Of a stretch of 64,000 bases of DNA, positions 9,867-13,858 are shown in pieces. The first letter of the stretch is position 1. Every line of letters begins with the position of its first letter. This DNA is from an uncultured Reyranella sp. GTDB lineage: Bacteria > Pseudomonadota > Alphaproteobacteria > Reyranellales > Reyranellaceae. The notes under the pieces were generated by a model that was not told the DNA's origin, ran no database searches, and saw only the letters and a list, made by a program, of their open reading frames with translations. The translations under genes and the position numbers were made by a program. The stretch covers positions 1-64,000 of the forward strand of contig NZ_CAMFKM010000019.1 of NCBI RefSeq assembly GCF_945957355.1. Direction: 5' to 3'.

Positions 9867-10325
9867 TCAGGCCCGATGATAGGGATGGCCGGCGAGGAGT
9901 TGCTGGGCGCGGTAGATCTGCTCGGCCAGCATCCCGCGTGCGAGGAGATGGGGCCAGGTCATGGCGCCAAATGACAGGACGAGCGTGGCTTTTTTCAGCA
10001 TCGCTTCCGTGTGGCCATCGGCGCCGCCGATCAGGAAGGCTACATCGGAGACCGACGTGTCGCGCCAGCCACCCAGGCGGGCGGCGAAGGTTTCGCTGTC
10101 CAGCACCTTGCCGCGGCGGTCCAGCATCACCAGCGTCGCGCCGGCCGGGGCGGCTTCGAGCAGCAGCTCACCTTCGCGCTGCATGAGCTGGGGCGCCGGC
10201 AACTTCCGCTTCTCCTCGATCTCGCGCAACACGAGCGGCCAGCGGATGCGGCCGGCATAGTGGTCGTAAAGGTCCCGCTCCGGCCCGCGCGAGGCGCGGC
10301 CGATGGCGGCAATCGTGATCTTCAA
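9867..10325 (-). CDS. rlmH: 23S rRNA pseudouridine-1915 N3-methyltransferase
   Basis: SPOUT-class methyltransferase that modifies helix 69 of 23S rRNA on the assembled 70S ribosome. At 152 residues it has the normal size. The conserved SAM-knot segments AFLIGGADGH and LAEQIYRAQQLLAGHPYHR close the protein, as in the E. coli enzyme. It lies 21 bp downstream of the nadD-rsfS frame, the common rsfS-rlmH order in proteobacteria. Confidence 0.96.
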   Translation of the reverse strand: MKITIAAIGRASRGPERDLYDHYAGRIRWPLVLREIEEKRKLPAPQLMQREGELLLEAAPAGATLVMLDRRGKVLDSETFAARLGGWRDTSVSDVAFLIGGADGHTEAMLKKATLVLSFGAMTWPHLLARGMLAEQIYRAQQLLAGHPYHRA

Positions 10326-10346: not shown

Positions 10347-11435
10347 TCACGAGGCGCGCTTGCGTCGGGCCGCGGGCTTGGCCGCCGCCTTCTTCACGGC
10401 CGTCTTGCGGACGGCGGTCTTCTTGACCGGCTTGGCGGCGGCCTCGTCCTCGAGCGCCCACATCTTTTCGAGCGCATAGAAGGCGCGCGCTTCGGGGCGG
10501 AAGACGTGCACGATCACGTCGCCGGCATCGACCAGCACCCAGTCGCCGGTCTGCTTGCCTTCCACGGGCGTGTAGCCGTGGCCGGTCTGCTTCAGCTTGT
10601 CGGCGAGATGCTCGGCGATGGCCACGACCTGGCGGGTCGAGCGGCCGGAGGCGATCACCATGTAATCGGCGAAGGCCGACTTGCCCTTGAGGTCGATGAC
10701 GACGATGTCCTCGGCCTTGTTGTCGTCCAGCGACTGGCGCACCAGTTCGAGGAGCGCGTCGGAGGCTTTGCTTCGATCGGGAAGCGTGCGGGTCTGGGCG
10801 GGGATGGTCTTTCCTTTCGATCTGGTCCGTCGGGGCCGCCCGGCGCGGATGGCCGTCGCGGAATGTTCATCCAACCTGCTCGGGATAAAGCACCAGGCCG
10901 GCGGCTCGCAAGTGGCCAGCTGCCGGGCCTGGTCCGCTCCCAGGCGGAATCGCGCGAAGGTTCGCGGCGCCGGCGAGGCCAGCGCGGCAAGGCCCCAGCC
11001 CGGCCGCGCGAAGGCTGCGATGGCAACGGTTGCGAACAGCTCGCGCCAGTTCGCCCAGTCGACGAGCTGGGGCAGGATGTCGGCCCCCATCAGCCAGACG
11101 AACTTCGCGTCACGGTAGACGCGCTTCAGCGCCCGCACCGTGTCGAGCGTGTAGCGCGTGCCCAGCACCAGCTCGGGCGCGGCGACGCGGATGCGCGGAT
11201 GGCGGGCGAGCTGGCGGGCGCGGGCCACACGGGTCGAGAGCGGCTCCATGCCGTCGCCGCTCTTCAGCGGGTTCTGCGGCGAGACCACCCACCAGACCTC
11301 GTCGAGGCCGAGCCGCTTCAGCGCCTCCAGGCTGATGTGCCGATGGCCGTCATGCGCCGGGTTGAACGAACCGCCCAGCAGGCCGATGCGCCGCGTCGTG
11401 GCCCGCGATACGCCCGGCATCGGGTGCAGGCTCAT
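10347..11435 (-). CDS. nadD-rsfS: Nicotinate-nucleotide adenylyltransferase joined in frame to ribosomal silencing factor RsfS
   Basis: One open frame of 362 codons from the ATG at 11435. Residues 1 to about 200 are NadD, which makes nicotinate adenine dinucleotide: GLLGGSFNPAHDGH near residue 18 and HSATAIR near residue 191 are the nucleotidyltransferase signatures. Residues from about 224 are RsfS, which binds L14 and blocks subunit joining (LVRQSLDDNKAEDIVVIDLKGKS), ending in a Lys/Ala-rich tail. No stop lies between them and no in-frame ATG precedes the RsfS domain. An AAAGGAAAG Shine-Dalgarno-like sequence sits 5-6 bases before an in-frame ATC at 10805, a possible rare start. The product may be a fusion, or two proteins with a non-standard second start. 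Confidence 0.88.
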   Translation of the reverse strand: MSLHPMPGVSRATTRRIGLLGGSFNPAHDGHRHISLEALKRLGLDEVWWVVSPQNPLKSGDGMEPLSTRVARARQLARHPRIRVAAPELVLGTRYTLDTVRALKRVYRDAKFVWLMGADILPQLVDWANWRELFATVAIAAFARPGWGLAALASPAPRTFARFRLGADQARQLATCEPPAWCFIPSRLDEHSATAIRAGRPRRTRSKGKTIPAQTRTLPDRSKASDALLELVRQSLDDNKAEDIVVIDLKGKSAFADYMVIASGRSTRQVVAIAEHLADKLKQTGHGYTPVEGKQTGDWVLVDAGDVIVHVFRPEARAFYALEKMWALEDEAAAKPVKKTAVRKTAVKKAAAKPAARRKRAS

Positions 11436-11445
11436 GACGCGATGT

Positions 11446-12726
11446 TCACGGGCGAAGCGTGCCCGTGCCGCGCACGATGTTCTTGTAGGTCGTGAGCTCG
11501 ACCAGCCCGACCGGGCCGCGCGCATGCATGCGGTTGGTCGAGATGCCGATCTCCGCGCCCAGGCCGAACTCGCCGCCGTCGGCGAACTGCGTGCTGGCAT
11601 TGTGCATCACGATGGCGCTGTCGACCTCGCTCAGGAAGCGCTGTGCCGTCGCGTCGTTGTCGGTGACGATCGATTCGGTGTGCTGGCTGCCGTAGCGCGC
11701 GATGTGCCGGATGGCGCCGTCGACGCCGTCGACCGTGGCGACCGAGATGATCGGTTCGAGATATTCCGTGCGCCAGTCCTTCTCGGTGGCGGCCAGCGCC
11801 TTGGGATCGCGCTTGCGGACCTCGTCGTCGCCGCGCACTTCGCAGCCCAGCTCGTGCAGCCTGTCGAGCACCGGCTTCAGGTGCGTGTCGAGCGCAGCGC
11901 GGTCGACCAACAGGGTCTCGGCGGCGCCGCAGACGCTGACCCGGCGCATCTTGGCGTTGGCCACGAGGTCGCGCGCCATGGCGACGTCGGCGTCACGATC
12001 GACATAGACGTGGCAGATGCCGTCATAGTGGCGCAGCACCGGCACGCGGCTTTCCTGCGTCACGCGGTCGATCAGCGAGCGCCCGCCGCGCGGCACGATG
12101 AGGTCGAGCCAGTCCATGGCGCGCAGCATCTCGCCCACGGCGGCGCGATCCGTCGTCGGCACCAGCGCCACGCAATCCTCCGGCAGGCCGGCACTGGCCA
12201 GCGCGCGGCGCAGCAGCTCGACGATGGTGCGCGAGGAATGGAAGCTGTCGGAGCCGCCGCGCAGGACCACGACATTGCCCGATTTGATGCACAGCGCACC
12301 GGCATCGGCGGTAACGTTGGGCCGCGCCTCGTAGATCACGCCGATGATGCCGATCGGCACCCTCACGCGGCTGAGGGCGAGACCGTTGGGCCGTTTCCAC
12401 TCCTCGATGATCGCGCCGACCGGATCGGGCAGGGCGGCGATGTCGTCGAGGCCCTTGGCCATCGCCTCGATGCGCGCGTCGTTCAGCAGCAGCCGGTCCT
12501 GCAGGGCGCTGGTCATGCCGGCGGCCCTGGCCGCCTCGATGTCGCGCGCATTGGCGGTCAGGATCGCGCTCTTTTCCGCGCGGATCAGGCGGGCGGCTTC
12601 GAGGAGCGCCCTGTTCTTGGCGTCGGTCGGAGCGTTGCGCAGGAAGGCGGCGGCGGCTTTCGCGCGGCGGCCGAGCTCGGCCACGATGACCGTGGCGTCT
12701 TCGGCGGGCTTGGTCTGGACGTTCAT
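11446..12726 (-). CDS. proA: Gamma-glutamyl phosphate reductase
   Basis: Second step of proline synthesis: NADPH-dependent reduction of gamma-glutamyl phosphate to the semialdehyde. The 426-residue protein starts MNVQTKPAEDATV; the longer ORF start at 12858 overlaps proB and is a frame extension. The catalytic cysteine lies in VCGAAETLLVDR (about residue 260), and the LRGGSDSFHSSR and GPVGLVELTTYK segments are family hallmarks. It follows proB by 16 bp, giving a proBA unit downstream of obgE. Confidence 0.95.
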   Translation of the reverse strand: MNVQTKPAEDATVIVAELGRRAKAAAAFLRNAPTDAKNRALLEAARLIRAEKSAILTANARDIEAARAAGMTSALQDRLLLNDARIEAMAKGLDDIAALPDPVGAIIEEWKRPNGLALSRVRVPIGIIGVIYEARPNVTADAGALCIKSGNVVVLRGGSDSFHSSRTIVELLRRALASAGLPEDCVALVPTTDRAAVGEMLRAMDWLDLIVPRGGRSLIDRVTQESRVPVLRHYDGICHVYVDRDADVAMARDLVANAKMRRVSVCGAAETLLVDRAALDTHLKPVLDRLHELGCEVRGDDEVRKRDPKALAATEKDWRTEYLEPIISVATVDGVDGAIRHIARYGSQHTESIVTDNDATAQRFLSEVDSAIVMHNASTQFADGGEFGLGAEIGISTNRMHARGPVGLVELTTYKNIVRGTGTLRP

Positions 12727-12742
12727 GGACTGCTCCGTCTGT

Positions 12743-13858
12743 TCACTCGACCACGAGGTCGTCGCGATGGACGATCTCGTCGCGGCCGCGGAAGCCCAGC
12801 AGCCGCTCGATGTCGACGCTCTTGCGGCCGGCGATGCGGCGCGCATCCTCGGCGGCATAGGCGACCAGCCCGCGCGCGAGAACCCTGCCGCCGCGATCCT
12901 TCACGTCGACCACATCCCCGCGCCGGAATTCGCCGGCGACCGCGGTCACGCCGGCCGGCAGCAGGCTCTTGCCGGAGGACAGCGCGCGCACCGCACCATC
13001 GTCGACGACGAGCGTGCCGGCAGTCTTGAGCGAGCCCTTGATCCACTTCTTGCGCGCCGACAGGGGCGAGCCCTCGGGCAGGAACCAGCTGCAGCGCGCG
13101 GTGCCGTCGATCAGCGCGCCCAGCGCGCCCACCTTGCGGCCGTCGGCAATGGCCATGCGGCAGCCCGCGGCCATGGCGATACGGCCGGCCATCAGCTTGG
13201 TCACCATGCCGCCGTTGGACATCTCCGAGGCCGCAACACCTGCCATCGCCTCGATCTCGGGCGTGATCTCGCGGATCTCGGGAATGAACGTCGCCGAGGT
13301 ATCGCTGCGCGGGTCGCCCGTATAGAGACCGTCGATGTCGGACAGCAGGACCAGCGTGTCGGCCGAGATCATCTCGGCGACGCGAGCGCCGAGGCGGTCG
13401 TTGTCGCCGAAGCGGATCTCGTCGGTGGCGACCGTGTCGTTCTCGTTGATCACCGGGATGGCGCCGAGGCCGAGCAGGGTGGCCATGGTCTGCCGCGCAT
13501 TGAGGTAGCGGCGGCGCTCCTCCGAATCGTTCAGGGTCAGCAGGATCTGCGCCACGGTGATGCCGTGCCGTGCCAACGCCTCCTGGTAGGCCTGGGCGAG
13601 CCGGATCTGGCCGGTGGCCGCGGCGGCCTGGCTCTCCTCGAGGCGCAGCGGCCCCGACGCCAGCTTGAGATGGGTACGGCCCAGGCGAATGGCGCCGGAC
13701 GAGACCAGCACGACCTCGCAGCCGCCTTTGTGCAGGCGCGCCACATCGTTGGTCAGGGCCTCGAGCCAGTCGCGCCGGACCTCGCCCTTCGTCTCGTCCA
13801 CCAGGATCGAGGAGCCGATCTTGACGACCAGCCGCCTGGCGCGGGCGAGGGGAGTCAT
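12743..13858 (-). CDS. proB: Glutamate 5-kinase
   Basis: First, usually proline-feedback-inhibited, step of proline synthesis. The 371-residue protein has the amino-acid-kinase domain ([12 protein letters not shown] at the start, [30 protein letters not shown]) and a C-terminal PUA domain (about residues 280-360). Its ATG overlaps the obgE stop by 4 bases (ATGA), so its translation is probably coupled to that of obgE. Confidence 0.95.

Follow-up and report, generated by a model that had tools for sequence, protein, structure and literature searches.

Comparative evidence for an AUC or AUU start of rsfS inside the fused nadD-rsfS reading frame of Reyranella

How does a bacterium obtain RsfS when its gene shares one uninterrupted reading frame with nadD? 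The question is raised by a stretch of 64,000 nucleotides from the contig NZ_CAMFKM010000019.1 of an uncultured Reyranella sp. (hereafter the window), the minus strand of which can be read from an ATG at 11435 to a TGA at 10349-10347 as 362 codons without a stop, with zero stops and zero in-frame ATG codons in the stretch between the NadD and RsfS domains. An earlier note, which named no strand, had described a complete NadD and a complete RsfS in this one frame and a Shine-Dalgarno (SD) sequence 5-6 bases before an ATC at 10805, and our analysis bears out both descriptions. The note went on to propose that the species makes a fusion protein, or that RsfS starts at the rare ATC, or that a stop and an ATG had each been lost by one base. 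The first two proposals are not mutually exclusive, and both appear to hold: we consider it likely that RsfS has its own conserved start of the kind discriminated against by IF3, and that Reyranella also makes a NadD-RsfS fusion beside free RsfS.

The frame (10347..11435, minus strand, as are all features given below) comprises 362 codons plus TGA and would encode a fusion of 39.9 kDa, with either the ATG at 11435 or an in-frame ATG at codon 6 possibly serving as the nadD start. The NadD part is complete, bearing the motifs GGSFNPAHDGH and HSATAIR and matching NF000843 in an NCBIfam search with 262.7 bits against a cut-off of 240 over residues 11-208 (10842..11405); this equivalog match and the motifs identify it as a nicotinate-nucleotide adenylyltransferase, predicted to adenylylate NaMN. 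The RsfS core (residues 229-326, 10458..10751) is likewise complete, covering positions 2-99 of the 99 of TIGR00090 with 124.4 bits (cut-off 56.9) and matching also PF02410 with 118.8 bits, and the full-length TIGR00090 match identifies it as RsfS (iojap/YbeB), predicted to bind uL14 and to block subunit joining. An AlphaFold2 model based on 27 fused sequences (mean pLDDT 66.7, pTM 0.50), used solely for domain borders and linker disorder, has two folded domains separated by a low-confidence stretch, residues 188-221 (10773..10874), which is predicted to be a disordered linker and holds codon 211. Codon 211 is the ATC (10805-10803), preceded by AAAGGA (10817-10812) and the 6-nt spacer AAGACC. 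Read from this ATC, rsfS (10347..10805) would specify 152 amino acids (16.6 kDa, pI 9.7). Its Lys/Ala-rich C-terminal tail (10350-10440) lies past the end of the family model, is modelled with low confidence and varies in length within the genus. The neighbouring genes, identified from the sequence without a family search, are proA (11446..12858), directly upstream of nadD, and rlmH (9867..10325, TTG start), the next gene of the cluster. A search of the window's genome returned one match to the nadD-rsfS frame and one RsfS, and no second copy of rsfS or nadD was found in it.

The junction between the two domains is strikingly uniform in the genus. In 60 distinct Reyranella loci, which come from many assemblies, some of them single-contig genomes (G016 and G022, for example), the nadD-rsfS junction is open without exception, and in all of them AAAGGA (once AGAGGA) is followed by ATC (54 loci) or ATT (six loci), never by ATG. 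A codon other than AUG, GUG or UUG is hence kept at a proper distance from the SD, with AUG avoided in the relatives. Comparison of the junction in related genomes had been suggested in the earlier note, and among the Reyranella relatives it brought to light neither a stop between the domains nor an ATG for rsfS. Apparent internal stops, considered as possible junction stops, proved from the junction codons not to be such, and those read through sit beyond the RsfS end. A codon alignment of 57 Reyranella fused ORFs reveals, moreover, a constraint that a protein linker would not be expected to impose: the junction glycine is encoded by GGA in 57/57 sequences (GGA accounts for no more than 7% at any of the 16 other conserved glycine columns), the lysine by AAA in 56/57 (next highest column 59%) and the threonine by ACC in 53/57 (next highest column 33%). 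Since synonymous positions are beyond the reach of amino-acid constraint, this conservation, which exceeds chance, indicates that the constraint acts on the nucleotides, as it would on a ribosome-binding site and a start codon.

Reyranella taken alone offers no forced case, because its frame is open into nadD and translation could simply run through from there. Sister genera within the family have a nadD with a normal end (SATALRARxxx followed by TGA or TAG), and close behind it lies rsfS, either out of frame with nadD or in a closed frame that is short, with the layout GGAG(A)-n-GCC-ATT-CCC, in which the ATT after the SD is the sole well-placed start. Six sister-family loci have no ATG, GTG or TTG at all between the nadD stop and the RsfS core; one locus of the family (L072) has TTG in place of ATT, and one from a sister genus (L068) has nadD and rsfS fused as in Reyranella. 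Given these separate genes with the SD-ATT layout and the six loci devoid of a canonical start, the ATT/ATC start of rsfS is probably older than the fusion, which probably arose through loss of the nadD stop in the Reyranella ancestor and also in L068. As one possibility, the earlier note had derived the CGA of a CCC CGA pair from TGA; that change is plausible, as other sister genera keep TGA or TAG at the site, but the loss would be ancestral to the genus and not an event of the strain. Its companion proposal, ATC from ATG, fares worse: ATT in the sister genera and ATA, ATT, ATC or CTG in much of the class indicate that the earlier codon was probably not ATG. Nor is there support for the suggestion that the fusion links NAD supply to translation shut-off, as nadD and rsfS generally lie side by side as separate genes (118 alphaproteobacteria and 31 of 40 non-alphaproteobacteria) and the linker is predicted to be disordered. 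Four alphaproteobacterial loci outside the family (L151, L169, L193 and L196) also have nadD and rsfS in one open frame, with linkers unlike those of Reyranella.

To follow the rsfS start over the class, 5' ends were anchored with the RsfS profile and, because kinship inflates raw counts, counted in 121 alphaproteobacterial lineages, i.e. clusters separated at 75% identity. An exact SD match of at least 5 nt occurs in 77 of these lineages and is missing from 44. An in-frame ATA, ATT, ATC or CTG follows 4-11 nt past the SD in 57 of the 77, whereas the two alternative phases give 5 and 10. When the 77 lineages are sorted by the start-like codon that comes first in frame, it is CTG in 22, ATA in 17, ATC in ten, ATT in seven, ATG in four, GTG in two and TTG in two, with none in 13, single assignments outside the constrained groups being subject to error. 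A duplex-energy scan of 200 alphaproteobacterial loci outside the family found 19 in which the frame is closed and has no ATG, GTG or TTG anywhere ahead of the core, so that no canonical start is available in these 19 and the six sister-family loci. Among 47 named loci of Rhodobacteraceae the common arrangement is GGAGGAC-n-CTG-TCN (the search pattern itself included GGAGG and CTG, the flanking conservation being independent of it), and Rhizobium and Hoeflea have AAGGA-n-CTG. A plausible ATG start is present in sphingomonads, Sneathiella and some other alphaproteobacterial lineages, and the first two appear to use it. The survey suggests that ATA, ATT, ATC or CTG after an SD is the usual state of rsfS in Alphaproteobacteria, found in most of the lineages sampled. 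An rsfS of alphaproteobacterial type with an ATT start also occurs on a contig labelled Candidatus Kuenenia stuttgartiensis (locus L237); its 5' end nearly equals that of L173, and the contig is probably mis-binned.

Two general explanations of this pattern can be set aside. That Alphaproteobacteria use such starts for everything is ruled out by rlmH, which begins with ATG, GTG or TTG in 113 of 120 other alphaproteobacteria and in 57/57 Reyranella; that RsfS does so in all bacteria is ruled out, within Pseudomonadota, by 40 rsfS loci from the other classes of that phylum, none of which is a forced case and in which the codon best placed after the SD is ATG in 19, TTG in seven, GTG in three and another in 11. 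The same kind of reading, anchored by homology, recovers the known case of infC, whose start in 30 alphaproteobacterial loci is ATA (25), ATC (four) or ATT (one), and is ATA after CAGGAGAAAGAC in the window's own genome (L301, G000:C28). The recovery of infC, together with the contrasts provided by rlmH and by the other classes, argues that the rsfS pattern is specific to the gene and the class, and the comparative evidence that rsfS starts at AUC or AUU is strong. As to rlmH itself, its starts in Reyranella are GTG in 36, TTG in 19 and ATG in two of the 57, with ATG in 89 of the 120 other alphaproteobacteria, and in four loci of a sister genus (L071, L074, L075 and L077) its start lacks ATG, GTG and TTG, leaving CTG or ATC as the sole apparent candidates.

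The explanation that we favour is that in Reyranella the 3' end of nadD harbours rsfS as an in-frame nested gene. After the ancestral loss of the nadD stop, ribosomes coming from nadD would run on to give the 39.9 kDa NadD-linker-RsfS fusion, and internal initiation at AUC (or AUU), directed by the gene's own AAAGGA, which is only a moderate SD, would yield free RsfS of 16.6 kDa. IF3 is known to discriminate against starts other than AUG, GUG and UUG, and against an over-extended SD (PMC4611024), and RsfS is described as binding uL14 and preventing subunit association (PMC7125091). RsfS output would accordingly be limited by IF3 through a poor start codon of the same class as that of infC: when there is too little IF3 for the 30S subunits present, more IF3 (a block on the 30S side) and more RsfS (a block on the 50S side, via uL14) would be made. 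IF3 control of rsfS and the presence of both proteins are what we infer from the start-codon pattern and the frame. In its fullest form, with IF3 and RsfS set together by the ratio of free IF3 to 30S, rsfS a second class-wide target of IF3, and both fusion and free form present in Reyranella, the model seems to us about as likely to be right as wrong.

Because ATA, ATT, ATC and CTG are weak also for reasons unrelated to IF3, the start may be real and yet serve solely to keep RsfS constitutively low, a reading that departs from the nested, IF3-limited gene in its last step only. It is a possibility to be taken seriously, albeit on the doubtful side: the Reyranella junction, the synonymous constraint and the class-wide pattern all fit it, and the AUU of S. 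aureus cvfC1 gave a lower yield without dependence on the medium (PMC13009471). Against it stand the same codon class at infC in the same genomes, the discrimination of IF3 against precisely these codons (PMC4611024) and the rarity at alphaproteobacterial rsfS of GTG and TTG, which would lower the yield too.

Should the fusion instead be the sole product, with RsfS a tethered domain and AAAGGA..ATC a relic, the maintenance of the frame would be readily understood. The linker 5' of the SD occurs in six lengths (7, 8, 9, 10, 12 and 13 codons), all in frame and free of stops in the 60 loci, which implies that the fused reading frame has been maintained too, through indels, and four other alphaproteobacteria have fused frames of their own. 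A relic, however, would hardly hold GGA, AAA and ACC at synonymous sites, nor keep the codon to ATC or ATT throughout the genus, and sister genera have the same SD-ATT layout before separate genes; we regard an obligate fusion as unlikely. Even less credible is a canonical RsfS start elsewhere, such as the GTG that the window has inside the core (at ELVRQ), for starting there would cut the domain's first helix (222-238 in the AlphaFold2 model), this GTG is far downstream of the conserved SD, and the closed frames of the sister genera contain no canonical codon before the core. The A-rich site A AAA GGA, conserved at the junction, might call to mind a programmed frameshift releasing NadD in another frame in place of the lost stop, an idea that we rule out as highly improbable, as beyond the site the other two frames stay open for 54 and 145 codons (medians), with a stop within 15 codons in just one and four of the 60 loci, respectively. 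Finally, the third proposal of the earlier note, a sequencing error or recent mutations in the strain, for which two single-base changes would be enough in this one sequence, is refuted for practical purposes by the 60 distinct loci of many assemblies, the single-contig genomes included, which share this junction, all open and none with ATG.

The nested, IF3-limited rsfS would join a short list. The textbook gene policed by IF3 is infC, with AUU, AUC or AUA starts, pcnB is another bacterial gene with a proven non-canonical start, and sigR, ccpN and cvfC1 are also among the few known. Like rsfS, infC (in E. coli, Streptomyces, S. aureus and Alphaproteobacteria) has a non-canonical AUN that follows an SD and is conserved across large clades, and its product is a ribosome anti-association factor; unlike rsfS, it encodes IF3 itself, so that its loop is one of autoregulation and rsfS would be a second target, and it is not nested in the frame of another gene. 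Both the autoregulation of infC through start discrimination and the repression by IF3 of sigR, with its GTC start, are documented (PMC5472188). The Streptomyces sigR resembles rsfS as a regulatory gene with a strong SD and a conserved rare start mis-annotated by standard pipelines, but its starts are GTC or GTT, its product is a sigma factor, its distribution is genus-wide and not class-wide, and its dependence on IF3 is experimental (PMC5472188). In S. aureus, infC, ccpN and cvfC1 use AUA or AUU starts; the conserved starts of staphylococcal ccpN (AUA) and cvfC1 (AUU), with their extended SD, are comparable to that of rsfS, although they belong to unrelated proteins of Firmicutes and were seen by Ribo-Ret (PMC13009471). 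The E. coli rsfS (ybeB), of the same family, also has a sub-optimal start, UUG (PMC10917681), which is canonical for IF3, and no fusion of this gene to nadD is known. Internal starts giving a shorter second product from one frame are found among the 75 alternative starts reported for Caulobacter, but these were mapped to ATG, whereas Reyranella has AUC or AUU and a frame that joins two complete, functionally unrelated domains (PMC4117421). Within the open-access literature searched we found no report of rsfS with an AUC, AUU, AUA or CUG start or of a NadD-RsfS fusion.

Conserved rare starts under IF3 are thus of an already known kind; what is new is the gene, the breadth over much of a class and the nesting inside a fused frame. 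If our interpretation is correct, a nearly universal ribosome factor with AUA, AUU, AUC or CUG through most of Alphaproteobacteria would be a large addition to the known cases. As gene callers assume ATG, GTG or TTG, the rsfS 5' end would then probably be mis-annotated in many genomes, and automatic annotation in Reyranella would probably yield a long NadD alone, without a distinct start for RsfS. It would also provide a testable mechanism for IF3 and RsfS levels moving together, as they do in E. coli lacking rimM, where both rise (PMC13246957). The pattern suggests that the rsfS start is poor by design, and that the output of this gene may be set by IF3, the very factor that polices translation starts.
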